From: an uncultured Opitutales bacterium
GTDB taxonomy: Bacteria > Verrucomicrobiota > Verrucomicrobiia > Opitutales > Seribacteraceae
Length of the DNA stretch: 64,000 nt
Reading direction: 5' to 3'
Assembly (NCBI GenBank): GCA_943787575.1
Contig: CALSMY010000007.1
Coordinates: 1 to 64,000, forward strand
This document shows positions 49,070 through 64,000 of the stretch, piece by piece; the stretch's first letter is position 1; every line of letters begins with the position of its first letter. The notes below the pieces were generated by a model. That model was not told the origin of the DNA and did no database searches. It was given only the letters and a program-made list of their open reading frames with translations. Both the position numbers and the translations under genes were made by a program.

Positions 49070-49825
49070 TTGAATTGGTGGGGCAAAATCGTCGGATCGG
49101 GAGTAGGTATGCTCGCGGGTCCCTTATCCGCCTTGATTGGGGGTGCTATAGGGCACTTCATTGATCATCGAAGTAAAGAACCTGCCGAAGAAAAAAGAGC
49201 TAAATTAATGTACTACGCTTATTTTTTTTCTTCCGCAGCAAAAGTCGCTAAAGCTAATGGGAGTATCTCAGAAATGGAAATTCTGAAAGTTGAAAACTTG
49301 ATCCAAAAAATGAGCCTTTCTCCTAATTTAGAAAAATTTGCCAAAGATATATTTCGAAAAAGTAAGGTAAATTCGAGGCATATATCTGAAGACTTTAAGG
49401 AGTGTGCCAAGCTGATTCGCTATGAACAATCAATTGCTTATTCCTTCATGGGCGGCCTTTTTGAAATTGCCACATGCGAGGGAGTTCCATCAAGCAAAGC
49501 ACAAATAAAATGCTTACTATTAGGGGAGAAATATTTCAAGATGCCTCCCGGAACAATCCGTACGTGGTATGCTGGAGGTTACATCACTGATACCCCTGGC
49601 GAGGCAAGCAACCAACTTAAAGAATGCTTCGATATTTTAGGCGTCTGCCCCACCGCAAAAAATGAAGTGATCAAAAAATATTATCGAAAAAAAATTAGCT
49701 CCTTTCATCCAGATTTATTAGAAAGTAAAAATTTACCTGAAGAGTTGATTGTTTTGGCAAAACAACAAGTCATTCGGGTGAACTTAGCCTATGAAAAAAT
49801 AAAAGAAGTTCGTGGGTTCAAATAA
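49070..49825 (+). CDS. TerB-like plus DnaJ-domain protein (DjlA-like)
   Basis: The 251-residue product starts at TTG 49070 with a glycine-rich hydrophobic segment (VGSGVGMLAGPLSALIGGAIGHFIDH), then a TerB-like helical domain (YAYFFSSAAKVAKANGSISEMEIL), and a C-terminal J domain at about 185-245 with the key HPD in SSFHPDLLES. This order matches DjlA-type cochaperones, which are membrane-anchored DnaK partners. The J domain is divergent but keeps HPD. The gene is convergent with the ATPase gene, overlapping by eight bases. Confidence 0.78.
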   Translation: MNWWGKIVGSGVGMLAGPLSALIGGAIGHFIDHRSKEPAEEKRAKLMYYAYFFSSAAKVAKANGSISEMEILKVENLIQKMSLSPNLEKFAKDIFRKSKVNSRHISEDFKECAKLIRYEQSIAYSFMGGLFEIATCEGVPSSKAQIKCLLLGEKYFKMPPGTIRTWYAGGYITDTPGEASNQLKECFDILGVCPTAKNEVIKKYYRKKISSFHPDLLESKNLPEELIVLAKQQVIRVNLAYEKIKEVRGFK

Positions 49826-50522
49826 CTATCCTACCATCTTCCATCCAATATTTTCGGTGCGAAAGATCGGCAAGTTTTTCGTTATGAGTTACAAGTATGA
49901 CCGATAAACCAGTTTGCTTAGCCATACGATCAAGCAATTCGAATACACCCTCTGAATTTGAACTGTCCAAATTCCCCGTTGGTTCATCAGCAAGCAAATA
50001 CTTCGGTGAATTAGCTAAAGCACGAGCAATGGCTACTCTTTGTTGTTCCCCACCCGATAATTTGTAGGCGGGGCGCTGAGCCTTACTTTCAAGACCAAGT
50101 TCAGACAAAAGGTCATTGGCTTTTTGATTAGCACTGTCTTCGTCTTTGCCAAGTTTTAAAAGAGGTAGGGAAATATTCTCAATTGCGCTTAACTCTTTGA
50201 TCAAAAAGTGAAATTGAAAAACAAATCCTATAAAATGATTTCGGGCTTTAGTTCGCTCATCATCTTCTAAATTTTGAACTTCTGAATCACCCATGAAAAC
50301 CTTTCCTGAATCCGGACGATCTAAAAGTCCCATTAAATAAAGCAGCGTACTTTTTCCACAACCTGAGGGTCCAGCAATAGAGGTAATTTCTCCAGGTTTA
50401 GCTTCGAGGCTAACTCCATTTAATACCTGTACTGTTCCGTTCGCCTCTGAAAAAGAATGAAACAAATTTTCTACCCTCATTGAACCATTAGGCATCATTT
50501 TATTTTTCTGAGAAAAATCCAT
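49818..50522 (-). CDS. LolD/MacB-type ABC transporter ATPase
   Basis: The 234-residue ATPase has Walker A IAGPSGCGKSTLLYLMG, the MacB/LolD loop FVFQFHFLIKELSAIENI, the signature KLSGGEQQRVAIARALANSP, Walker B YLLADEPTGNLDSSNSE and an H-loop VTHNEK. It is the last gene of a tolC-hlyD-permease-ATPase unit on the minus strand. The substrate could be lipoproteins or a secreted small molecule. Its ATG is adjacent to the permease stop. Confidence 0.93.
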   Translation of the reverse strand: MDFSQKNKMMPNGSMRVENLFHSFSEANGTVQVLNGVSLEAKPGEITSIAGPSGCGKSTLLYLMGLLDRPDSGKVFMGDSEVQNLEDDERTKARNHFIGFVFQFHFLIKELSAIENISLPLLKLGKDEDSANQKANDLLSELGLESKAQRPAYKLSGGEQQRVAIARALANSPKYLLADEPTGNLDSSNSEGVFELLDRMAKQTGLSVILVTHNEKLADLSHRKYWMEDGRIVI

Positions 50523-51766
50523 TACAGAGTCTCTCTAATAATCTTTGCCGGTTCTATACGAGCTGCACGACGTGCAGGAATCCATGTCGCTACAGCCACA
50601 AAGACAAAGGCTATACAGCTAGCCCACAGGTAATGATTAAGATCCCAATTTACCACAAAGCTATCAGTAGAAAATATTCCTCGAATTCGAAGCGGAATCA
50701 TCGAAATAAAATAAGTTCCCGAAGCCGCAAATAAAGATCCGATCGTTATACCTGCGACCAGAACAATCGTACCTTGCCACAAAAATATTGCAGAAATATC
50801 CGTTCTCGAAAAGCCCATTGAACGTAAGATTGCAATATCTCGAGTTTTTTCGATCACAAGAATTGCAAAGACATTAAACATGCCTAGACCAGACAATAGA
50901 AGTATACAAGACACGGTAATTGCCGAGGAGAAACGAAGTGCCTTGAATACATCAAGCCAGACTCTTTCCCTTTCTTGCCAACTAACAACCCGATGATTAA
51001 GAGCCGATTGCAATTGGGCGGCAAGTCCGGGTGCATGAGAGGGTTCATTTAAAGCTATCTGGAAAACTGAACCTCCATGTGAACTGCCAAGGAAAGAACG
51101 GGCGGTAATCAAATGTATATAGATGCGATTTTTATCGATCTGGCTAACACCAGATTCAAAAATAGCTGAAACTCTAAGATGTAGATTACCGGTTCCGCCG
51201 ACCAAGCTAACCCTGTCACCAATTTTTAGGCCTAAGCGTTGAGAAATCCTGGACCCTAATATAACTCCCATTTGGTCAGATGAAAAGTTATTGATAGTTC
51301 CCTGAATAATTTGTTTATTCAGGTCAGATGATTGGAGGTGGTCTTCCCATCGAATACCATTAAGCACAACGGACTTTCGACGAAAGCCCGTATCAAGGAC
51401 TGCACTGCCTTCCATAATTTCAGACACCCCCATGAGCTCAGGGTAGTCAGCTAAAGCATCTCGAATCAATGAAGGTTGGTCCACGCCTTCATGATATAGA
51501 GAACCTTCGCGCGAATGAAAAAGAAACCTGACATCTCCATCATCATCGACTTGTTCAACAGTTCCATAAGTATCTTGAAAGCGGTCAGAAATCCGCAGTG
51601 CACCGTTTGTACCTAAGATTGTTTGAATAAAAAATTTCTCAAACCCGGAGGTTTGAGCCTGAGTAACCACAAAAAAAGAAACTCCAAATACAATTCCAGC
51701 CAAAGATAAAAACATCGGCCTCTTCCGAGCAATTACGAAACGCCAGGCTAATTTGAAACAGAGCAT
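50522..51766 (-). CDS. LolC/LolE-MacB-type ABC transporter permease
   Basis: The 414-residue protein has the FtsX/MacB topology: one N-terminal helix (MFLSLAGIVFGVSFFVVTQ), a periplasmic domain of about 230 residues, and three C-terminal helices at about 275-400. The RSMGFSRTDISAIFLWQGTIVLVAG coupling segment and final TWIPARRAARIEPAKII are typical of LolC/E and MacB. It pairs with the ATPase encoded next. With the adaptor and TolC genes it resembles a MacAB-TolC or DevBCA-like exporter more than a stand-alone Lol system. Confidence 0.9.
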   Translation of the reverse strand: MLCFKLAWRFVIARKRPMFLSLAGIVFGVSFFVVTQAQTSGFEKFFIQTILGTNGALRISDRFQDTYGTVEQVDDDGDVRFLFHSREGSLYHEGVDQPSLIRDALADYPELMGVSEIMEGSAVLDTGFRRKSVVLNGIRWEDHLQSSDLNKQIIQGTINNFSSDQMGVILGSRISQRLGLKIGDRVSLVGGTGNLHLRVSAIFESGVSQIDKNRIYIHLITARSFLGSSHGGSVFQIALNEPSHAPGLAAQLQSALNHRVVSWQERERVWLDVFKALRFSSAITVSCILLLSGLGMFNVFAILVIEKTRDIAILRSMGFSRTDISAIFLWQGTIVLVAGITIGSLFAASGTYFISMIPLRIRGIFSTDSFVVNWDLNHYLWASCIAFVFVAVATWIPARRAARIEPAKIIRETL

Positions 51767-51786
51767 TAGATGACAACCTCTCCCAT

Positions 51787-52917
51787 CTATTCGGAAAAAC
51801 TAACCTGAGTAGACTTAATCCTTTCCCCATCTTTTAATAAGTGCGGTGTTTCAACCACAACCTTCTCACCTTTTTTCAAGCCGTTTAAGACCTCAACAGT
51901 CCGCAAATTCTTAGACCCGATTAAAACTTTTCTAAATTGAGCCACACCTCCCTGCTCCACCACTACATAATCACCGATTAGTGCCTTGCGCGGTATAAGC
52001 AAAGCACCCTCTTTCTCTGATTTTATAATCTCAGCCCGTCCAGAACTCCCAACTGGAATTCTTTCATCAGGATTATTCAACCTCAAATAAAGTTTTCTGA
52101 TGCCGGAGTTTGATTCCACCGTAGAAGAAAGGGCTGATACATTTGCATCAAAAATAGTTCTTCCTTGAGAGAAAAATGTAACTCCTGCAGAAAGTCCTAC
52201 CTTTAAGCCAGGAAACTCTTCTTCGTTTAAAGAAACCTCGATAATTCTTTCAGATGAATGAACATTCCCAACAATATTTCCAGAAAAGACTTGGTTACCA
52301 GGGGCAACAAAACAGGAAGAAAAATCGCCTTTAATTGGACTCCTTATTGCCCGTTTATCTACTTCAGCAACGAGAGTATCCATAGAAAGGTCAAAGTTTT
52401 GTAAAAAATGGGATTCAGCTAATAACTCCAGTTTTCGTTGTGCTCGCATCCGCTCAACTTCGTTTTGCTTTGTTTCAAGGTTATGAATTGAAACTTTTTC
52501 CTCTTTGGCTAATTCACTTATTGAGAGAAGTTCTTTCTCCTGAATCTCTAAAAGTATGCCAAGAGGAGACCCCGCTTTTTTTCTTTCAGTAAATTGTTTT
52601 TTGTCCAAAAGAAGGCGATCCATCCTTCGGTCAAGATCATCAAGTTCGAGTTGGACTAATGTCTGGTTTTCATCAACTGATAGGGTCCCCCCTAAGGGTA
52701 AAAGTGCGACCCAATCTACTTTTGCATTTGATTGAGCTCGTAACTCATAAGTCGCAGCTGCATGGACGCGGACATTACCGGTAACCGAATCCCGAATTGT
52801 TCCAGTCTTAGATTGGGTAACCAAAACGGTGGGAACGATTTGCCTGAAAATAAAAAAAACAGAGAGGACAATCAGGCAAAGTATAAAACCACATAAAGCT
52901 AGAGAACTTTTTTTCAT
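51787..52917 (-). CDS. HlyD/MacA-type membrane fusion protein
   Basis: The 376-residue protein has an N-terminal membrane anchor (LCGFILCLIVLSVFFIFRQIV), a lipoyl/barrel-sandwich half (DSVTGNVRVHAAATYELRA), an alpha-hairpin coiled-coil of about residues 90-175 (Lys/Glu rich), the second half AIRSPIKGDFSSCFVAPG, and a beta-barrel ending VVEQGGVAQFRKVLIGS. It links the inner-membrane permease with the TolC-like channel. It lies between those genes, 20 bases before the permease and two after tolC. Confidence 0.9.
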   Translation of the reverse strand: MKKSSLALCGFILCLIVLSVFFIFRQIVPTVLVTQSKTGTIRDSVTGNVRVHAAATYELRAQSNAKVDWVALLPLGGTLSVDENQTLVQLELDDLDRRMDRLLLDKKQFTERKKAGSPLGILLEIQEKELLSISELAKEEKVSIHNLETKQNEVERMRAQRKLELLAESHFLQNFDLSMDTLVAEVDKRAIRSPIKGDFSSCFVAPGNQVFSGNIVGNVHSSERIIEVSLNEEEFPGLKVGLSAGVTFFSQGRTIFDANVSALSSTVESNSGIRKLYLRLNNPDERIPVGSSGRAEIIKSEKEGALLIPRKALIGDYVVVEQGGVAQFRKVLIGSKNLRTVEVLNGLKKGEKVVVETPHLLKDGERIKSTQVSFSE

Positions 52918-52919
52918 AC

Positions 52920-54272
52920 TTATTTAGGATTTGGATAGTTGATAAAGGTTTTAAACATTACAATCTGTTCATACTGGTCAAGCAGCACCATAAATTGACA
53001 TACTGCTTCCAAATTCTCCAATTGAGACCGATCCAACGCAACTCTAGCAGAAAAGTGGTCTGCGGGAGATATACGATCCATTTGTAATTCAATTTTACTT
53101 TTCTCAAGCCTGTTTTCAGCTACTAAAATTAATTTTCGCCCCAAGATGATCCTTTCTTTTAAAGACTTAAGTTCGCTAACCACAGAACGGACTTTATCTC
53201 GCAGTTCACGATTTTGATTTTCAATTGCATTTTCAAATTTTAACTTCCTTGCCAAAGCAGCTTTTTTTTGTCCAGCACTCTTGTGTGAATCCCAAATTGA
53301 CCAACTGGCCTCTAAGCCAACTAAAAAATTGTTCCTGTCTAAACTGCTTCTACCTTCTGCAAGATCAACCTGATCTTGGAAGTATGCACCAGTCAGATTA
53401 ATTTTGGGTTTTAGTTCAGCTTCCGCAATTTTTATATGCTCATCTTCGATCTGAACTTGGGTATGTAATTTCTCGATCTCTATATTACTTAAAGAACCAA
53501 CAAGGATAGGAAATTCCTGATTAAAATTATGACTTTTAGAAAACTCCCAAAAACCTTTGGTAATATCGAGAGACAAAGGCTTATCGTATCCGGAAAGACT
53601 TACAAAATAAGCTTTATTTCTTTCTAATGAAGTTCTCAGTTCCGCAATGGATATTTCACGGTTGAGTTGCTCAACCCTAGCCTCTTCTAAAGCAAGAGGA
53701 GTACTCAATTTTAACTCCAACCTCTTTTCAATTGTATCTACATATTGGGTTGCAATCCTGAGTTGCTCAATTGCCATCTGGCTACGATATTTTAGGGCAA
53801 CCAGCTTTAGAAATATACCCCGAACCTCACCGGTAAGAATTCTTTTTTGGACTGAACAACTATCTTCGGCCCAAGATATATTTAGCTTGGCAATTTGCTC
53901 TCGTGCTTTCAATGCCCCCCAATGGAATATTGGCTTGGTCAGATAAGCTTGATTAAAAGTGCGATAACGATGATAGAAATCTTCACTTGGTCGATCTTCA
54001 TGAATTGATTGACCAGAAACCTTGAACCCAAGCTTAAATCCTTGTTCTGACTTGGCAATCACCTGATTAGCCTGGGCAATATCCAAATCGAATTCTTTAC
54101 TTTTTAATACCGGCGAACGGTCATTTAGTTTTTCTAAAACCTCAACAAGTTCCTTAAAAAAAAACTCAGGCCTTTCTTTATTAGGAATTTCAAACCCAAA
54201 TAAATTTAAGCAAGTGAAAGTGGTGAGATAAAAAAATAAATATGTTTTTTTCAAGTCACCACAATGGAACAA
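52920..54272 (-). CDS. TolC-family outer membrane efflux protein
   Basis: The 450-residue protein has an N-terminal signal segment (YLFFYLTTFTCLNLFGFE) and the duplicated helical coiled-coil organisation of TolC proteins (for example LDIAQANQVIAKSEQGF and AGQKKAALARKLKFENAIE), with SWSIWDSHKS in the second strand/hairpin region. It would form the outer-membrane channel of the exporter encoded after it. It follows the respiratory operon by 47 bases on the same strand, so co-transcription is possible. Confidence 0.88.
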   Translation of the reverse strand: MFHCGDLKKTYLFFYLTTFTCLNLFGFEIPNKERPEFFFKELVEVLEKLNDRSPVLKSKEFDLDIAQANQVIAKSEQGFKLGFKVSGQSIHEDRPSEDFYHRYRTFNQAYLTKPIFHWGALKAREQIAKLNISWAEDSCSVQKRILTGEVRGIFLKLVALKYRSQMAIEQLRIATQYVDTIEKRLELKLSTPLALEEARVEQLNREISIAELRTSLERNKAYFVSLSGYDKPLSLDITKGFWEFSKSHNFNQEFPILVGSLSNIEIEKLHTQVQIEDEHIKIAEAELKPKINLTGAYFQDQVDLAEGRSSLDRNNFLVGLEASWSIWDSHKSAGQKKAALARKLKFENAIENQNRELRDKVRSVVSELKSLKERIILGRKLILVAENRLEKSKIELQMDRISPADHFSARVALDRSQLENLEAVCQFMVLLDQYEQIVMFKTFINYPNPK

Positions 54273-54319: not shown

Positions 54320-54997
54320 TTATTGACCAAACGAGTCTGAAAACATCTTGCGTAGTTCAGAACCAACCCACTGATCTTGCATATCAGATGATTCATCCCG
54401 TAAACGGCTGACCTCATCCTCGAAAACTTCAGATGAAGAATTACCCCATGCTTGCCTGACATAAGTGGAAACATTCGCAATTTCACGGTCAGTAATTGGA
54501 ACAGCAGCCATATTAACCGCTGCAGATGTGCCATACTTTTGACCTTTCACCATAATTTCTCCCTTTAGGCCTTTTAGGATAACATTTGCAATAACTGCTG
54601 GATCTGCAGAAACCCACTCGGAACCAGCAAGGGGAGGAAACTGCCCTTCTATTCCCAATCCATTAGCTTGGTGACATGAAGCACAACGGGCGGCAAAAAT
54701 CTTTTCTCCCGAAGAAATCTTCCTGTCCAATCGTAAGGTTTCTTTTTCCTCTGCTGTAAGTTCGACTATTTCAACAGGGGGATGGAGTTGAAATGAATTG
54801 GTAGAATGGGACAACTGAATTGAACAAACAAAAATCAAACAACCAAATACGAACACGAAAACCAAAGGGGCCAACAGAAAATTTGCGGTAGGCTCGTGCT
54901 TGGTTTTGGAAAGCTCGACATGAGATTTAACGATTTCTTCATCAGAAAATTCTTTGTCGTTCGGCAAGTTGCCGCTGTGTGTTGAATCGTCGTTCAT
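54320..54997 (-). CDS. Membrane-anchored single-haem cytochrome c (CcoP-like)
   Basis: The 225-residue protein has one transmembrane helix (FLLAPLVFVFVFGCLIFVCSIQ, about residues 40-62) and one c-type haem site CASCH, followed by the QANGLGIEGQFPPLAGSEWV box and an axial-Met candidate in VNMAAVPI. It resembles half of a CcoP subunit, which normally has two haems. It overlaps the CcoO-cytochrome fusion by four bases and so belongs to the cbb3-like unit. It could also be the electron carrier from alternative complex III. Confidence 0.82.
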   Translation of the reverse strand: MNDDSTHSGNLPNDKEFSDEEIVKSHVELSKTKHEPTANFLLAPLVFVFVFGCLIFVCSIQLSHSTNSFQLHPPVEIVELTAEEKETLRLDRKISSGEKIFAARCASCHQANGLGIEGQFPPLAGSEWVSADPAVIANVILKGLKGEIMVKGQKYGTSAAVNMAAVPITDREIANVSTYVRQAWGNSSSEVFEDEVSRLRDESSDMQDQWVGSELRKMFSDSFGQ

Positions 54998-56124
54998 TGT
55001 ACAGGAGTGGTAAGCTCGGCGGCCGTAAACATTTGCATAGGGGCCCTACCCTTCAAAGATGCTCGAACGGTGGCAACTTCTTCAGCTGAAACAGCAGATG
55101 CAGAATTACCCCAATCGTTTCGAATGTAAGTAAGAACGTTAGCGATCTGATCGTCAGTCAAAGATCCAGGAGGAATACCAGGGGGAGCCATAACATTGTT
55201 GTATTTAACTCCATTAACCTCAATCTCACCCATTAGTCCATACATCGAAATCTTTATCAGCCTTTCCTTATTACCCAAAACCCAGTCAGACCCAGCAAGA
55301 GGGGGGAACTGTCCCGCAAGACCTTCTCCGTTTTGTTGATGACATGTAAAACACATTCCACCGCCTGGTGCAGCCTTCATATAAATTTCTTTCCCCGTGT
55401 CTATCTGTTCCTGCAGCCATTGGGGAGCACTTGAACTGGCTACTGACACATCGGTGGAAACAACATCCTCCTCGACTGGTTCATCTTCAGTCTCAACAAA
55501 GGAAACTTCAGGAAGTTCATAATCTTGTTTCAATGCTTGCAAGTAAGCCACAAGACGGTTGGCTCGGACCGTTGGGCGAACATGACGATTATCTTGAGGA
55601 TCGTTATTGGAAGCTATTTCAATATCAGTATTCACCGGTTCATCAATTTGCTGGTAGAGAAACGGGCTAGGCGGACAAAGAGAAGAAGGGAAAATCGATT
55701 GAGGTTCAAATAAGTGTTGGTGTAACCATTCATCAGAATATTCCCGTAAGCCAACATTGGCCAAATCCGGACCGATTCTTGAATTCCCTAGAAGTACATG
55801 TTTTTGTAAGACATAGTCTCGAGGAGCAGATGGCCGTTTCCCCCAACCTCTTTCCACGTCAAAACCGGCTTCAACACGTCTTACTTGCTGGGTGTGGCAA
55901 GTTACGCAACCAAGGGCAGCATACTCTTCAGCACCTTGCTTAGCTATACCGGAAAAAGCGATAGGAAACAGTTCGGCGTCTTCAGGAACTGAACCGTCAT
56001 CATCTAATACCTCGGAGGTTGGCACTAAATCTCCAAATTGAGAGCGGGCACCGACAACAAATGCAAGCCATGCCATGCCTAGGGTAAAAAATATACCAAT
56101 GGTGAATTTGGCCAGGTTGTTCAT
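54994..56124 (-). CDS. CcoO-like cytochrome c subunit fused to a second cytochrome c domain
   Basis: The 376-residue protein has an N-terminal membrane helix (FTIGIFFTLGMAWLAFVVG), then a CcoO-type haem site in EYAALGCVTCHTQQVRRVEAG with the HVLLGNSRIGPDLANVG and RLVAYLQALKQDY segments of CcoO. From about residue 235 a second cytochrome c domain with CFTCHQQNGEGLAGQFPPLAG follows. This C-terminal domain is closely similar to the separate cytochrome encoded next, suggesting duplication. The fusion may replace part of CcoP. Its start overlaps the CcoN-like stop by four bases. Confidence 0.87.
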   Translation of the reverse strand: MNNLAKFTIGIFFTLGMAWLAFVVGARSQFGDLVPTSEVLDDDGSVPEDAELFPIAFSGIAKQGAEEYAALGCVTCHTQQVRRVEAGFDVERGWGKRPSAPRDYVLQKHVLLGNSRIGPDLANVGLREYSDEWLHQHLFEPQSIFPSSLCPPSPFLYQQIDEPVNTDIEIASNNDPQDNRHVRPTVRANRLVAYLQALKQDYELPEVSFVETEDEPVEEDVVSTDVSVASSSAPQWLQEQIDTGKEIYMKAAPGGGMCFTCHQQNGEGLAGQFPPLAGSDWVLGNKERLIKISMYGLMGEIEVNGVKYNNVMAPPGIPPGSLTDDQIANVLTYIRNDWGNSASAVSAEEVATVRASLKGRAPMQMFTAAELTTPVQ

Positions 56125-57524
56125 ACGCTTGCCTCCTTCTTATCTTCAGCAAAAAAAGCAAATGGATTTGGGAAAATTACTCTCCATACATTGACCACAA
56201 ATACAAACTGAGAAAAAGCGAGAATGATGAAAGCGAATTTGGTGATCAAGAAATAAGGTTGGATGGATTGAATGACTGATGATGCCCAGGGCAAACTAGG
56301 TTGTCCGGCCAAAACCCCATGAGTAAGACCGCCAATTAAGTAGGCAAGTAGGAGCATCAAAACGCCAAGTGTAGAGGTCCAAAAATGAAAAGACTTTGCA
56401 GCTTTGGGAATTTCACGACCAGTAATCCGGGGAAGTGCAAAATAAACTGCCCCGAAAATAATCATACTGAAAAATCCATAAACTCTTTGATTAAAGTGAA
56501 ATTCATTGATGATTGTAAATTGAGTGATCTTGGCAACTGCAGGTAATGAAAACACCACACCGATATAACTCGATACGGTGTATGATAATGTGCCGAAAAT
56601 AACAAACCTCAGAGGCAAGCTGTCCCAAACCTTTCCAATATCCATGAATGCTGTGGCATGAAAGTTCGTTGATGCCACGGCTATTGGGAAAACCATCGCT
56701 ATGCTCATCACTGTGCCAACTGCTGGTATCCACATGGGTACGGGTCCACCTTCCAAGTGGTGAACAACTGACCAAGGAGCAAGGGCGGCGATACACCAAA
56801 AACCAAATATAGCTAGATAATACTTATCTATTGTTCTACCAAGAATTGCAGGGATAAGGTAATAAGCAGCACCTAAAGCTACAGGAGTTAACCATAGCCA
56901 AACTAGGCTTTGTCCATACCACATCGAAAGAACTGTCTGCAACGTACCACGAGCAGGATTAATCTCGAGTCCATTCCATGCGATCAAAAACAACGCCGGG
57001 AACCAAAGTAATGCAGCTAAAATAAACCACTGAGGAGCAATCGTTTCACGCACTTGACGAGAGCGATGAATGACAAGAGCTAAGAATGTAATAATCAGGT
57101 AGGAAATAAGCATAGCTGGCCAAACTTCCGTGGGCATTTCAAGCATTTCGTGCCCACTCATATGACCATCCATAATGCCCAACAATCCAAATGTGATAGC
57201 TAAATTCCAGATGACTCCAGCAAATATAAGAAAGACGGATCCGCGTACCTCTGCCTGGGACAGACGGGCCAATATCCAAAGAGATACAGCAAAAATCGCG
57301 TTACCTCCCCATCCGTAAACAAAAGCGTTAGCCTGAGCTACTTTGACTTTACCATAAGTCAGAAATTCAAAGGATGATAAGAAAAAAGGATCGGTCAGTT
57401 TGGCTGCAGCAAGGTATGCAAGCAATGCAGCCATAAGTAGCCAAAGTCCCGCTGAAGAAAGAAAGAAGGAAAAAGCCAACTTAGCGGAACGATCAATAAC
57501 CTTGTCTGGAGAATCTACTGCCAT
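56121..57524 (-). CDS. Degenerate CcoN-like (cbb3 oxidase subunit I-like) protein lacking haem/copper ligands
   Basis: The 467-residue protein has about 12 membrane helices and aligns along its length with CcoN: VAQANAFVYGWGGNAIF, GIMDGHMSGHEMLEMP, MWYGQSLVWLWLT, APWSVVHHLEGGP and NEFHFNQRVYG. The low-spin haem ligands are replaced (Gln64 for His60, Asn345 for His349 of Pseudomonas numbering), one CuB ligand is Gln205 for His207, and the cross-linked Tyr251 position is Ala249. His255, His256 and His343 (the other CuB pair and the high-spin haem ligand) remain. The codons were read directly. It therefore cannot be a standard oxygen reductase. It may be a structural or quinol/electron-transfer partner of the adjacent complex III (inference). 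Confidence 0.85.
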   Translation of the reverse strand: MAVDSPDKVIDRSAKLAFSFFLSSAGLWLLMAALLAYLAAAKLTDPFFLSSFEFLTYGKVKVAQANAFVYGWGGNAIFAVSLWILARLSQAEVRGSVFLIFAGVIWNLAITFGLLGIMDGHMSGHEMLEMPTEVWPAMLISYLIITFLALVIHRSRQVRETIAPQWFILAALLWFPALFLIAWNGLEINPARGTLQTVLSMWYGQSLVWLWLTPVALGAAYYLIPAILGRTIDKYYLAIFGFWCIAALAPWSVVHHLEGGPVPMWIPAVGTVMSIAMVFPIAVASTNFHATAFMDIGKVWDSLPLRFVIFGTLSYTVSSYIGVVFSLPAVAKITQFTIINEFHFNQRVYGFFSMIIFGAVYFALPRITGREIPKAAKSFHFWTSTLGVLMLLLAYLIGGLTHGVLAGQPSLPWASSVIQSIQPYFLITKFAFIILAFSQFVFVVNVWRVIFPNPFAFFAEDKKEASV

Positions 57525-57530
57525 GCGAAC

Positions 57531-57842
57531 CTATTTGGATGGTTGTGGTTGAGCCTTGTTAGCGGCACGATAAGTTTTAAGGACACTTTCCATCGACGAT
57601 TCAATGGTGGTATTGCGCTCAGCATGAAAATTATCAACCGAGGACAAAAATTGTTCATTTTGGTCTCGGTGTGCCTGAGCTTTTGCTATGCGAGCTGAGT
57701 CAATTGCCTCGTTAACAGGAGCAGGTACATCAGGCTCGAAAGTTCTTTGAGCCAAGTAGAATCCGGAAAGCAACAATGCCAATACTAAAAAAGTAAAGAA
57801 GACGCTGCATCCGTCAGCCCGTTGGTTCTTCGGATCACTCAT
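57531..57842 (-). CDS. Small membrane protein linked to the respiratory operon
   Basis: The 103-residue protein has a single N-terminal transmembrane helix (VFFTFLVLALLLSGFYLAQ) and a soluble, charged, probably helical tail of about 70 residues. It lies between actF (8-base overlap) and the CcoN-like gene (6-base gap). No family is recognised. Its position is like that of small accessory subunits in oxidase or complex III operons, so an assembly or accessory role is suggested by context only. Confidence 0.7.
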   Translation of the reverse strand: MSDPKNQRADGCSVFFTFLVLALLLSGFYLAQRTFEPDVPAPVNEAIDSARIAKAQAHRDQNEQFLSSVDNFHAERNTTIESSMESVLKTYRAANKAQPQPSK

Positions 57843-59139
57843 GATGATTTATGGATTCACGAATGCGAGGATCGCGAATCGGAATAATTTCTGCCACGCC
57901 AGATTGAAAACTGCGAATAACTGCCCATGCACAAAGACAACCAACCCCCACGAGGGAAAACAGACCCCAGAGCAAGTGAGAACCAACCACAGGGCGGGCT
58001 TCATAACCAACATATGCTCCTGGAACAATTTCGCGGCCTGGAATAATATTCCAATATAGATCAAGAAGGTGGAAAACTAAAATCCAGCAAACGATAAATA
58101 CAAGTTTGGGGACATCGACTTTATTTCGGTAGAAAAGCAGGTATAAGAAAGGGAAAAAGAAATGACCAAATATTAAACCCATACTCACCCAAAACCAACC
58201 AGAACGAAGACCCGTATTTGGATCAATTTCACGGATAGTAAACCAAAAGGTTTCTTCCGGAATATTTGCACTGTAAATCAAAAAATATTGGGAGAAACTA
58301 ACATAGGCCCAAAATATCGTAAAAGTTAGAGACAGACAGGCCAAATCATACTGATGAGCTTGCTTAAATAAGCCCTTGAGCTTGCCATTTGCTACTAGGT
58401 AGAGACAAATCAAAATGGTTACTGCAAGTGCGGCTCGCATACCCGAAGCAAAAAACCAAACCCCGTACATAGTTGAAAACCATTGGTATTCCAAACTCAT
58501 GAACATATCAAAAGCACCAAAGGTAAGGGCTAATGCAGCGGCCGGGATTCCAATTGCGGAAACTTTAGTACCAAGATGTGTCCAACTTGGATCACCATCC
58601 TTGTCCTGTGAAAAGGACGCTTTTCTAAGCCAATGACTAATCCCACAGAAAATTCCAAAGTAAGCGATGAGTCGAAGAGTGAAAAAGTTTAGGTTCAGGT
58701 ATCCTGCTTTTTTTTGATGAAGTACATCTTCCTCAACCGATATTACACTGCTTACCTCAATCGTCGGACTGGCTGGATTAACCCAGGACCAAAGAATACC
58801 TGCCTGATCCTTCCCAAACCAAGCGACTAATAAAAGGGGCAAGAGGCATAAGGCTAACCAAGGGAAAGCAGAAAGTGCGTGTTCCTGTTGTCTTCGAACC
58901 ACCGGGCTCCATTTTGAATTAAACACACGGAAAATCATGATTAACATGAGCATGCCAATGGCAATACTCAGCCAAAAGGAACAACCCCACAGCCAGCCAA
59001 GAAAAGGTGCTTTATCACCAGTTTGTAATCCTTGAAAAAGTCCGACTAATCCACCTCCGAGGCCAAGGATAGAACCAGCTAAGAGTTTGGTGGAAAGACC
59101 CTTTTGGGGAGTGTCCTTAGTGGAGGAATCTTCCATCAT
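57835..59139 (-). CDS. actF: Alternative complex III subunit F (quinol:cytochrome c oxidoreductase, membrane subunit)
   Basis: The 434-residue polytopic protein has about ten helices, for example LLAGSILGLGGGLVGLFQGL, IAIGMLMLIMIFRVF and LVFIVCWILVFHLLDLYW, with HWLRKASFSQDKDGD between. Context and pattern match ActF, the second NrfD/PsrC-like membrane subunit. It starts at ATG 59139, overlapping the actE stop by four bases; the longer reading upstream is in the actE region. It probably contributes to quinol binding. Confidence 0.86.
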   Translation of the reverse strand: MMEDSSTKDTPQKGLSTKLLAGSILGLGGGLVGLFQGLQTGDKAPFLGWLWGCSFWLSIAIGMLMLIMIFRVFNSKWSPVVRRQQEHALSAFPWLALCLLPLLLVAWFGKDQAGILWSWVNPASPTIEVSSVISVEEDVLHQKKAGYLNLNFFTLRLIAYFGIFCGISHWLRKASFSQDKDGDPSWTHLGTKVSAIGIPAAALALTFGAFDMFMSLEYQWFSTMYGVWFFASGMRAALAVTILICLYLVANGKLKGLFKQAHQYDLACLSLTFTIFWAYVSFSQYFLIYSANIPEETFWFTIREIDPNTGLRSGWFWVSMGLIFGHFFFPFLYLLFYRNKVDVPKLVFIVCWILVFHLLDLYWNIIPGREIVPGAYVGYEARPVVGSHLLWGLFSLVGVGCLCAWAVIRSFQSGVAEIIPIRDPRIRESINHHE

Positions 59140-59801
59140 GATCCTTGTCCTTTCGATGCAGTGGTTGCCTGCCCAACATAGTCTTGTAAAGCACGAAGAT
59201 ATAGTACAATGGCCCAACGCTCATCTGGAGAAAGCCTGTCTTTAAGCCCAAGCATAATTCCAGATGCAGAACCGTTTGAAATTGCATGGTAAATTTGTCC
59301 GTCTGTCCACGGTGCGGCGGACTCTAAATAAGTGCCAGAATTTGATGGGTCAGCCAAGTTTCTTGGATTGAGACCAAATTTGGCTGTTACCCCCAAACCA
59401 TTCCCGTAATCACCATGGCAAACGGAGCAGTGAATGTCGTATTTTTCCTTACCTAAACGCATCGTCGACAAATTTAATCCAACTTGAACAGGTACATTCT
59501 TTACCCACTCACCATTTGGTAATTTACCAGTGGTGTAAGCGTCTGAATGAAATTTTGGTTGTGATGAGAAAACATTTTTTGGATCAATCGCAGTTCCTCG
59601 TAACACAGTACCTGCAACAGGTAACCGGTCAGCACTGCCATCTGCAAAACGAGAATTTGCGGTTTGGGCCTTGAACTTCGCTTGTCTGTCCATGTCCGGA
59701 AAAACTTCGATTGGAGTATTTTTTGAAAAATCACCTCGAAACCCAAGGATCGAGACAATGGTGATAACCAAAATGGTAAAGATTGGTATGATGTATCTCA
59801 C
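59136..59801 (-). CDS. actE: Alternative complex III subunit E (monohaem cytochrome c)
   Basis: The 221-residue protein has an N-terminal membrane helix (YIIPIFTILVITIVSILGF), and the haem site CSVCHGDYGNGLGVTAKFGLNPRNL with a methionine-containing region ASGIMLGLKDRLSPDERWAIVLYL. This is the ActE cytochrome c of alternative complex III. Its position between actD and actF is the canonical order. Confidence 0.88.
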   Translation of the reverse strand: MRYIIPIFTILVITIVSILGFRGDFSKNTPIEVFPDMDRQAKFKAQTANSRFADGSADRLPVAGTVLRGTAIDPKNVFSSQPKFHSDAYTTGKLPNGEWVKNVPVQVGLNLSTMRLGKEKYDIHCSVCHGDYGNGLGVTAKFGLNPRNLADPSNSGTYLESAAPWTDGQIYHAISNGSASGIMLGLKDRLSPDERWAIVLYLRALQDYVGQATTASKGQGS

Positions 59802-59805
59802 TTGA

Positions 59806-60357
59806 TTAATCTATGGGTTCGCGAATAATTTGCACAGCCTTACCGCCAACCTCTTCAAGAAAACTAACGGTTTCTTCGTCATCAAACTTTGGATCTTCAA
59901 CTTCGATAACGATCATAAATTTATCATCCCCAGTACGACCAAAATCTGGATGTTCAAAAACGGGATGATTGTGCCGAGGTAGACGGTTTAGAAAAAACAT
60001 GCCAAACAATGTACCGAATGCAGCAAATAGAATGGTAAGTTCATAAAAAACCGGAAAGGGATAGATGGGACTGAAATATGGCTTACCTCCCACAATTAAG
60101 GGATAATCAAACTCATTCATAAACCATACGATTAACATACCCGTAAAAAAACCAGTAATTCCGCCTGCAAGTGTGAAACGTGGTACTTTAGATCTCGCGT
60201 ATCCCATTTGAGCATCCAGACCATGTACAGGAATCGGGGAAAAGCATTCCCAGTTAGAATAGCCTTTTTCTTTCACCTTACCCGCAGCATCGTAGAGTTC
60301 CTTGGCGGAAGAAAATGTTGCCGCTGCAGCATATTTGATGTCCATAATATCACTCAT
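59806..60357 (-). CDS. actD: Alternative complex III subunit D (DUF3341)
   Basis: The 183-residue protein has the DUF3341 layout: a soluble N-terminus (YAAAATFSSAKELYDAAGKVKEKGY and CFSPIPVHGLDAQMG), two transmembrane helices (LAGGITGFFTGMLIVWFMNEF and FYELTILFAAFGTLFGMFF) and a C-terminal part with RLPRHNHPVFEHPDF. DUF3341 proteins are ActD subunits. It follows actC after two bases. Confidence 0.92.
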   Translation of the reverse strand: MSDIMDIKYAAAATFSSAKELYDAAGKVKEKGYSNWECFSPIPVHGLDAQMGYARSKVPRFTLAGGITGFFTGMLIVWFMNEFDYPLIVGGKPYFSPIYPFPVFYELTILFAAFGTLFGMFFLNRLPRHNHPVFEHPDFGRTGDDKFMIVIEVEDPKFDDEETVSFLEEVGGKAVQIIREPID

Positions 60358-60359
60358 GA

Positions 60360-61766
60360 TTAATGATCAGCATGGGGATCAGCTTGGGGCATTACGGACT
60401 TCACTTCACACATGGGCATGAGAGGTAAAAATCTTAAGAAAAGAAGGAAAAGAACTGAGAAAAACCCAAAGGTTCCAAAGAAAGTAAAAATATCCACAAC
60501 TGTGGGTGAATAATAGCCCCATGATGAAGGCAAGAAGTCACGGGATAAAGTGGTATTAGCAATAACAAACCTTTCAAACCACATACCCACATTAACAAAG
60601 ATCGAAATAATCCAAACAAGCGGAGTGTTTTGACGAATCTTTTTAAACCAGAACAACTGCGGGCAGATAACATTGCAGGATACCATTATCCAATAGGACC
60701 ACCAGTAATTGCCAAATGCACGATTGATGAAGGCAAAACCCTCATAGGAATTGGCACCATACCATGCGATAAAGAACTCCATTGCGTACGCATACCCGAC
60801 TAGACTACCAGTCGCTAGAGTAATCATACACATATTATCGATGTGTTTTTGTGTGATCAAATCACGCAGACCAAAAACTGCACGAACTGGCAGTAGAAGG
60901 GTCAAAACCATTCCGAAGCCAGAGAAAATTGCCCCTGCCACGAAGTAAGGGGGGAAAATTGTAGTATGCCAACCAGGCAAATTAGCCACAGCAAAGTCAA
61001 AAGACACGATTGTATGAACCGACAAAACGAGAGGAGTTGAAAGACCAGCTAGTAGAAGGTAAGCCATCTCGAAATTACGCCAGTGATTATTTGCATTTCG
61101 CCAACCCATTGCAAAAAATCCATAAAAATATTTACGCCAAGTCTCGGTTGCACGATCACGGAGAACCGCCATGTCGGGAATCATACCCATGTACCAAAAG
61201 AGTATCGACACCGTTGCGTATGTTGAAACCGCAAACACATCCCATTCAAGTGGACTCCGAAACTGCGGCCAAATCGCATTGGCATTAGGAATCGGGAAAA
61301 GCCACCAAGCAAACCAAACCCGTCCCACATGAAAGAGTGGAAAAATACCTGCACATAAAACAGCGAACACCGTCATGGCTTCAGAAGCCCGGTTAATCGA
61401 TGTTCTCCATTTTTGTTTAAGGAGACAAAGTACTGCAGAAATTAAAGTACCTGCATGCCCGATACCGATCCAAAAAACAAAATTAACAATCGCCCAACCC
61501 CAATTAACAGGATTGTTATTTCCCCAAACACCAACTCCAGTGGAAACAAGGTAGACCAAGCCCATTCCAGTAAAACTGGCGATACAAAGTGCGGTGATAA
61601 AACACCACCACCACCAAGTTGGAGTCTTTGACTCTACAATGCCACAAATCTTGTCAGTAACCCATTTATAATCCCGATTATTAAGAACCAAAGGAACATC
61701 TTTCCAGGGAGCGGGGTCGACCTTTTTCAAGATCTCGTGTTCTTCGACTTCTTTTACCTCAGACAT
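60360..61766 (-). CDS. actC: Alternative complex III subunit C (NrfD/PsrC-like)
   Basis: The 468-residue membrane protein has about ten helices and the NrfD pattern: [84 protein letters not shown] and GANSYEGF. This is ActC, the main quinol-binding membrane subunit next to the iron-sulfur protein ActB. It starts 2 bases after the actB stop. Confidence 0.94.
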
Positions 61767-61768
61767 TT

Positions 61769-64000
61769 TTAATGGGCTCCGTGCTCATCTCCGTGATGTG
61801 AAGGATGTGCTTTGTCGTGGTATTCACGAGCAGAATGAGGTGATACTGCAAAATCTGGCATCCGTGGATTAGGGTTACGAACTTTTGCAAGAAAGGTGGT
61901 GCGTGGACGTGTGTTTAAATAACCGAGGACTGAATAGTCTCTTGGATTGTTTTTCAATTTACTGACCTCACTTTTCGGGTCACTGATGTCGCCAAATACA
62001 ATCGCTTCACTCGGGCAAACTTGTTGACATGCCGTTTTAATAGTCCCATCTGGAACTTTTAAGATCAGACTTTTCAAGTTTCACACCTGCTCCATCCTCA
62101 CCAGACTCGAGTTTGGCAGAGCGCTGAGCATTTACTTTGGTGCGAATCTTGGACTCTTGAATTCGTTGGACGCAGTAAGTGCATTTCTCCATAATACCAC
62201 GCATACGCACGGTAACATCAGGATTTTTTCCCATGTCTACAAGGGAATCGTTCTTATCACCAATAGGCCCTTGGTAGAGCTCATCAGTTTTGCGTTTATT
62301 CCAATCAAAAAAGTTAAAGCGGCGGACCTTGTAAGGACAATTATTTGCACAATACCTCGTTCCAACACAACGATTGTAAGCCATCGCATTCAAGCCTTCT
62401 TCGTCATGAACCGTTGCATTAACAGGACAAACGCTCTCACAAGGTGCGGTTTCGCAGTGCATACATGCTACGCCCTGGAAGGAAACTTGGACATCAGATG
62501 GAATCTCTGCTCCATCACGAGCAGTAGAACTAAAATAGCGATCCAAGCGAATCCAGTGCATCTCGCGACCACGAAGAACTTGGTCCTTACCAACTACGGG
62601 AATGTTATTCTCGCTCTGACAGGCAACAACGCAAGCACTACAACCAGTACACTGATTTAAATCAATAGTCATTCCCCATTGGTGAATACCAAAAACATCA
62701 GATTTTTCGTAAGTATGATCTGGATGCTCGTAAGCAGAATTACCCCGGGGTGTGGAAGTCGCTTTTTCTTCGAGAGATTTATTTTGGTCTTTTCCCCACA
62801 TTGGCGGGGAGTGCGACTCAGCGCCCATGTGGTCAGCAAACTCTGGATCAGAAATATATTCATCAGCATTGGCCTCACGAACAATCGCACGACCTTCCAT
62901 TGACCAATGCTCCTGAACATTTGCCAAAATTTGAAAGCGACCCGTTGGTTCCAATGAAGCTCCTTTAAGTGTCAAAGAACCTGTACCATCCAACAAGGGG
63001 GTAGAATCATACCCCGTACCCTGCCCTACTCGACCGACATGGGTGCGCCCAAAGCCAAGTGTAGCTACCACGGTATAATCAGCCAAACCAGGTTGTACAT
63101 AAAGAGGAGCCTCGATCTTGCGATCTCCCAGGTTGACAATTACGACGGGGGCTTTTTGTTTACCACCATCAAACTGAGCAACATCTGGAGCAATTTGACC
63201 ACTCTTATTGAGCATAGTTGGTTGAGGGAGAAGACCGATATCTGGGTGCTTAGCTTCTAATTCTTTCGCCAAAACTGGGCTAATTAAAAGAGCGTTATCC
63301 CAGGTAAGTTTACTGATGGGGTCCGGGCACTCCTGCATCCATCCATTATTGGAATACTGCCCATCATGCGCATGGAAATCTGGAATAATAAGAACATCTA
63401 ATTGATCAGCAGACAAAGTAGCCGGCTTTGCCTGTTTAGGCTTAATGGCAATAATCGCAGGCTTGGGATCAATATCATTTACCCTAACTGCCTTGTAGTC
63501 GAGGGAACCAAGACGCAAGAAGTCGTCAAATTTTGAACCTGATGAAAGAGATTTGTGTAGGTCTTTTACGCGAGAATAATCATCTCCCTTCTCGCCAATT
63601 AAATGGGAAAGTAGAGAGGTCTCGGAAATGGTATCAAATAAGGGAGCAAGTAGAGGTTGCACAGGTACCACAACAGATTTGTCCCAAGTTAATCCCAAAT
63701 CCCAGCTTTCGAGGTAATGAGACTGTCCAAGATGGTGATCAGCAATCTGAGAACTTTCATCGATGGATGAGCCCAAGCGTAAAACATACTTAAGTTTCTT
63801 GGAAAGTTCCTCCCAATTAATAAATCCCTTGGTGTGGTAGACCGGGTTACCACCAAGGATAATCAATCTCTCAACCTCACCATCCTTAACAAGCTTGGCT
63901 AGAGAATCAATAGAACCATCGGTATAATTAGTCTCGATATAATCAATGGTTTGCCCGATTGAACCGAGGGCTCGGTTCATGGCATAGGAAAGAAGTTGTA
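61769..64000 (-). CDS. actB: Alternative complex III subunit B (molybdopterin-like plus iron-sulfur), one frameshift, 5' end outside window
   Basis: The product reads on past the window end (upstream residues QLLSYA are in frame), so the start is missing. The first part is the molybdopterin-oxidoreductase-like half ([34 protein letters not shown]). The second is the ferredoxin half with cysteine groups [42 protein letters not shown] and CTYCVQRI. The frame breaks at the T-run 62057-62060; removing one base joins it to the piece with [17 protein letters not shown], which supplies the last cysteines. ActB and ActC together oxidise quinol, passing electrons to ActA/ActE. Confidence 0.93.

Follow-up and report, generated by a model that had tools for sequence, protein, structure and literature searches.

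The window analysed here, a 64,000-nucleotide stretch of contig CALSMY010000007.1 from an uncultured Opitutales bacterium, carries an alternative complex III (ACIII) operon on its minus strand, with the gene order actA-B-C-D-E-F, a gene for a 103-aa protein, N, O and P. The actA gene, which has five CxxCH motifs, lies outside the window in the same minus-strand operon, and actB (61769..63998) extends beyond the window end. They are followed by actC (60360..61766; NrfD, PF03916), actD (59806..60357; Pfam PF11821, 209.8 bits), actE (59136..59801), which encodes a monohaem cytochrome c, and the NrfD-like actF (57835..59217), whose TTG start at 59217, overlapping actE, is probably too early. The 103-aa protein (57531..57842) has one hydrophobic segment and lies between ActF and N, a place where a short gene was found in most operons. 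N (56121..57524) is a CcoN-like pseudo-oxidase subunit, a polytopic membrane protein of 467 aa. It is followed by the CcoO-like subunit O (54994..56124; 376 aa), which joins a FixO domain to a C-terminal class I cytochrome c domain, and by the CcoP-like subunit P (54320..54997; 225 aa), in which a hydrophobic segment at the N-terminus precedes a single class I cytochrome c domain (CASCH ... NMAAV). Overlaps of 4 bases join N to O and O to P.

Some minor features of the operon were also recorded. In actB, the frame breaks at 62037-62077, where an A-run is one A longer than in L004 and L006, giving frames of 1048 and 102 aa; because close relatives have a single frame, an assembly or sequencing error is likely. 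Positions 49818-54272, directly after P, carry TolC-like, HlyD-like, permease and ABC ATPase genes. In the family's other genera (L169-L173), the genes that come after P are of comparable length. In eight other loci (L065, L084, L100, L101, L107, L110, L116 and L138), the short protein between actF and N is replaced by an extra one-haem cytochrome of 251-280 aa. A search for an RNA element in this region found none.

A CcoN-like subunit without its cofactor ligands

The N frame contains no internal stop over 56121-57524, which bears out the statement in the first-pass annotation, where the strand was left unstated, that the gene has no frameshift. We aligned N by HMMER to the CcoN chains of 3mk7, 9g6b, 8smr and 6xkw (E values of 5e-31 to 2e-26), using the numbering of the PDB chains, and obtained a second placing of the ligand columns from a MAFFT alignment with homologues that included intact ones. 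In both alignments, the replacements that had been proposed for this protein were found: the two low-spin haem b ligands are exchanged (H60 for Q64 and H347 for N345), as are the CuB ligand H207 (Q205) and the active-site Tyr of helix VII, Y251 (A249). The second low-spin ligand had been numbered His349; its loss stands, and its number is corrected to H347. H255 and H256 remain, corresponding to H257 and H258 of CcoN, as does H343, corresponding to H345. Three of the six histidines that bind haem b, haem b3 and CuB in a functional cbb3 oxidase are therefore replaced.

The first-pass annotation had also proposed a check for ligands at shifted positions. N has nine histidines in total, each of which could be placed in the alignment, and those other than the remaining ligands (121, 125, 153, 289, 380 and 402) lie away from the ligand columns; shifted ligands were thereby ruled out and the loss stands. 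A sequencing error or frameshift in N was likewise ruled out by the occurrence of the same state in public contigs from other assemblies and in family genomes.

The overall fold is intact, as had been claimed. An AlphaFold2 model of N (pLDDT, 91.9; pTM, 0.91) gave 3mk7_A (CcoN) as its best Foldseek match, with TM scores of 0.89/0.90, ahead of NOR and A/B-type oxidases. N also scored 139.1 bits against Pfam COX1 (gathering score, 34.8), indicating homology to the haem-copper oxidase superfamily, and 105.3 bits against the NCBIfam ccoN model, where the curated cut-off of 583.15 was not reached. A NorB-like protein would bind its low-spin haem through a pair of His and have three more at its FeB site, and N has lost the same His positions. 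Compared with the CcoN of cbb3 oxidases (3MK7, 8SMR and 6XKW), N thus shares the fold, the N-O-P gene order and many non-ligand invariants, but it has neither low-spin haem b ligand, lacks one of the CuB ligands and has no active-site Tyr.

We took 34 positions outside the ligand and Tyr set that are invariant in 38 ligand-complete C-type sequences and scored them in 57 ligand-less rows, where they were kept on average in 68%, while the seven ligand and Tyr positions were kept in about 22%. Arg57 was present in 7% of these rows and Tyr251 in none of the 57. The N proteins of the window clade retain E126, E129, S274 and Y315, and both Arg57 and Arg437 are gone. With the low-spin haem ligands and the Tyr missing and the CuB site incomplete, the sequence makes N very unlikely to reduce oxygen; we reject that function, in agreement with the earlier view that N is not an oxygen reductase.

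Ligand states among relatives and their history

Close relatives of N (71-97% identity) were collected from 27 public contigs and a search of the family. Over the seven columns, the relatives read from the window's genus and from two others show the state Q,Q,A,H,H,H,N; the exceptions among the 27 public contigs were one with N at 255 and one truncated before position 64. A fourth genus of the family (L167 and L168; 41% identity) has S/F,Q,A,G/V,D/E,Q,N and hence none of the histidines. Twenty-one operons, 20 from the window's order and one from its class, keep all six histidines and the Tyr, at 34-39% identity. The first-pass annotation had set relatives with six histidines against its reading: not one was found among the family members read, whereas the 21 intact operons do occur in the order and class. 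The latter date the ligand loss and do not refute it.

Our survey covered one phylum, Verrucomicrobiota, in a sample of 289 genomes, of which 90 matched, some of them through a canonical cbb3 oxidase only. Where these organisms have a canonical cbb3, it is encoded separately, as a CcoN-O fusion whose ligands are intact. The actABCDEF-N-O-P cluster was conserved in the Verrucomicrobiota loci examined. Seventy-five operons were used in both an N tree and an ActB+ActC tree, 21 with all seven residues and 54 without.

In the N tree, which was built with the seven ligand and Tyr columns removed, 78 ACIII-type N proteins formed one clade (100/100) apart from canonical cbb3, and this clade mixes intact and ligand-less members. 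For example, L064, with the state AAGVNQQ, was nested in the intact group of its own family. Taken alone, the N tree, which has long branches, joined most of the order-level ligand-less rows and implied about three losses, while the ActB+ActC tree required at least nine state changes. A single clade of the order's ligand-less rows was rejected on the ActB+ActC tree (p-AU, 2.6e-72), and a clade uniting the window clade with the ligand-less rows of family f3 (p-AU, 2.2e-4) or with L064 and L088 (p-AU, 3.2e-72) was rejected as well. The separation on the ActB+ActC tree and the AU tests rule out a single ancient loss. We read the state changes as losses because seven residues would hardly be regained together; the replacement residues at the ligand positions vary between lineages, and transfer of N alone among operons is a less simple explanation. 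The N of the window is therefore not the isolated oddity that it had seemed, but one of many separate losses in a protein family that also has intact members.

Branch lengths and substitution rates were then compared between N and its operon partners. The N branch of L064 is 4.9 to 7.4 times as long as those of its intact sisters, versus 0.7 to 0.9 times for ActBC, and in other loss lineages the corresponding values are 2.2 to 5.3 for N and 1.0 to 2.2 for ActBC. The ratio of N to ActBC distances is 0.50 in the window clade and 0.66 among intact operons. Against the two closest unsaturated relatives, at 97% and 96% identity, N gave Ka/Ks values of 0.021 and 0.042 and ActF values of 0.026 and 0.047, and within the family N has evolved no faster than ActF. 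N has thus undergone a burst of change at the loss followed by renewed constraint, which is not decay. Judged by gene linkage, the conserved cluster and the strong purifying selection support the earlier proposal that N is a membrane subunit of non-canonical type and part of the ACIII operon.

Partner cytochromes and A-type oxidases

Subunit O has changed along with N. Its FixO domain keeps CVTCH, and the axial Met of SxMP is replaced by Cys (SLCPPSPFL), so that the His/Met ligation of the CcoO haem c of cbb3 is absent from the O of the window; the C-terminal class I cytochrome c domain reads CFTCH ... VMAPPG. Each of the 19 intact operons for which O was aligned retains the axial Met, which is replaced in many ligand-less ones. 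Met-to-Cys replacement was confined to ligand-less operons, where it was seen throughout the window's family and separately in one family of the class, and a few other ligand-less operons have H, K, A or R at this site. P, by comparison, has CxxCH and a Met in every operon aligned. With ligands gone in N, altered in O and kept in P, the loss spreads outward from the catalytic core and ends at P, a cytochrome c that can pass electrons elsewhere.

The window genome (2.1 Mb; 86% complete) contains one other COX1, an A-type subunit on contig C4, separate from the N operon. The accompanying subunit II has one CxxCH, as in the caa3 type. We judged this caa3 oxidase intact by eye, from the usual His and the HPEVY motif in subunit I and the CuA motif in subunit II. 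A search for cytochrome bd in the same 86%-complete genome found none. Across the phylum sample, an A-type oxidase was present in 43 of 43 ligand-less genomes and in 17 of 21 genomes with intact N; the four genomes without one (G001, G128, G146 and G229) all have intact N. The difference (4/21 versus 0/43 lacking A-type) gave a one-sided Fisher value of about 0.009, computed by hand and ignoring kinship. Since most intact-N genomes also hold an A-type oxidase, its presence permits the loss and does not predict it. In the family sample, one ligand-less genome, 82% complete, showed no A-type gene. Of the 23 class-level ligand-less operons, 19 have aa3 genes immediately behind N-O-P. One locus (L104) combines a ligand-complete N with aa3 genes in one cluster and is a plausible intermediate.

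Proposed role of N and its relation to known systems

We propose, with a probability of roughly 0.6, that N is a pseudo-oxidase scaffold, evolved more than once, that keeps cytochrome c in place between ACIII and caa3. This reading builds on the selection on N, on the constant position of its gene between those of ActF and the cytochromes, and on the presence of an intact caa3. A C-family subunit I (CcoN) would thus have become a fixed member of the ACIII operon (ACIII-N-O-P) and been kept as a membrane scaffold, and N, linked to ACIII through its gene cluster, would be part of the ACIII particle. Menaquinol oxidation and a haem c wire through ActA and ActE are established for ACIII elsewhere. 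In the organism studied here, ActC/ActB would oxidise menaquinol and electrons would run along the ActA/ActE wire. N would anchor O and P on ACIII as an active cbb3 core would, while carrying no electrons itself. Electrons would pass from ActA/ActE to P and to the C-terminal cytochrome c domain of O, and from these to the cytochrome c domain of caa3, which would reduce O2. The c-haem of the FixO domain, having once served the lost haem b, would now lie off the main path, which would explain the changed axial ligand in O. The ligand-less state arose repeatedly, in genomes with an A-type oxidase. More tentatively, and at slightly less than even odds, the terminal-oxidase module built into Verrucomicrobiota ACIII may repeatedly have been stripped of cofactors and reused as a dedicated dock and electron bridge to a second, A-type oxidase, giving ACIII-(pseudo-cbb3)-caa3 supercomplexes. 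Two functions suggested in the first-pass annotation fit less well. A proton path is disfavoured by the loss of even the remaining His in the sibling genus and by the absence of Tyr251 from the ligand-less rows, and an electron-transfer unit is a fitting description of the attached cytochromes, but not of N itself.

It is unlikely that N in the window clade retains a residual site with one cofactor, whether H343 carries a five-coordinate haem b or a metal sits on H255/H256/H343, and works outside oxidase chemistry, for instance in redox sensing or in binding NO or peroxide. The three histidines are indeed 96-100% conserved in the 27 window-clade rows, helices 7-10 are the most conserved part of N (71-77% invariant), and E126, E129, S274 and Y315 are retained. 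However, those 27 rows share 223 invariant columns out of 467, which makes three kept histidines unremarkable; one member has H255 replaced by N, the sister genus lacks all three, Arg57 and Arg437 are gone, and no low-spin haem is left to feed such a site.

We also consider it improbable that N serves only as an assembly or stability factor that inserts or matures O/P, ACIII or caa3 and stays outside the electron bridge. The strong conservation of the fold without cofactors would suit such a role, for which the retained ligand-free COX1-like protein of Acetobacter (PMC10715153) offers a precedent. Against it, N adjoins the structural genes for ActA-F, O and P rather than assembly genes, and the cytochrome c of P is conserved.

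A His/Cys-ligated haem c is known in SoxA/TsdA-type cytochromes. If O had one, N-O-P might be a branch enzyme on ACIII with a substrate other than O2, and the twofold appearance of Met-to-Cys replacement in ligand-less operons would fit. We regard this as highly doubtful: most other ligand-less operons have Met, or H, K, A or R, at the site, a pattern suggestive of relaxed constraint; sulfur-oxidation genes were not recognised beside the operon in the window; and the Cys ligation is putative. Finally, a decaying pseudogene of a redundant oxidase, for which ligand loss and rate acceleration could be cited, is ruled out by the low Ka/Ks (0.02-0.04) and renewed constraint, the frame being open in the relatives read and N being no faster than ActF in the family and retained after each of several losses.

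The scaffold reading touches on several known systems. Opitutaceae and the verrucomicrobial methanotrophs are known to have a C-type oxidase beside ACIII (Refojo 2010, cited in PMC8498564), in the same kind of cluster, where the C-type oxidase genes come after those for ACIII, and the intact homologues of the window's order are presumably these reported ACIII-associated oxidases. They are described there as oxidases, whereas in the accessible portions of the open-access literature we found no mention of ligand-less versions and no description of a ligand-less CcoN beside ACIII; the main early ACIII papers, Refojo 2010 among them, lie outside that search. In Rhodothermus marinus, electron transfer from ACIII to caa3 is direct and the two form a supercomplex (PMC5928083), and in Flavobacterium johnsoniae ActE is dispensable for electron transfer to aa3 (PMC8552683). 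These supercomplexes likewise connect ACIII to an A-type oxidase via haem c domains, but an N-O-P module between the two is not described there; the proposed N-O-P bridge would be a further solution for transfer from ACIII to an oxidase. The "deranged" COX1-like protein of Acetobacter is also a retained haem-copper subunit I homologue without cofactor residues, but it is clustered with CtaB rather than in an ACIII operon, and the accessible part of that report (PMC10715153) describes no series of separate conversions. A C-type oxidase beside ACIII and a retained cofactor-less COX1-like protein are thus already known, while in the open-access literature searched we found no account of CcoN in ACIII being converted repeatedly into a subunit without cofactors as CcoO changed in step.

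If the scaffold reading is true, a respiratory enzyme has recurrently been converted into a structural respiratory subunit. The occurrence of intact and cofactor-less operons in related genera amounts to a natural experiment on the rewiring of respiratory supercomplexes, and the operon set makes testable what an oxidase core contributes besides catalysis. There is also a practical consequence. Ligand-less N passes the Pfam COX1 threshold by 100 bits, so that annotation as cytochrome c oxidase subunit I is to be expected; in a cbb3 context this would imply a high-affinity oxidase, and inferences about oxygen respiration from Verrucomicrobiota genomes and metagenomes can go wrong.

Other CcoN groups were seen in the survey. 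Six loci (L071, L073, L074, L075, L079 and L086) belong to another C-type oxidase group with complete ligands, an N of 453-461 aa and an O of 194-197 aa, which adjoins a seven-haem cytochrome of about 600 aa and not ACIII. A third divergent CcoN group (L070 and L090; 546-618 aa) has complete ligands and a two-haem CcoO-like partner; it lies outside ACIII operons, and the same genomes also hold a ligand-less ACIII N.
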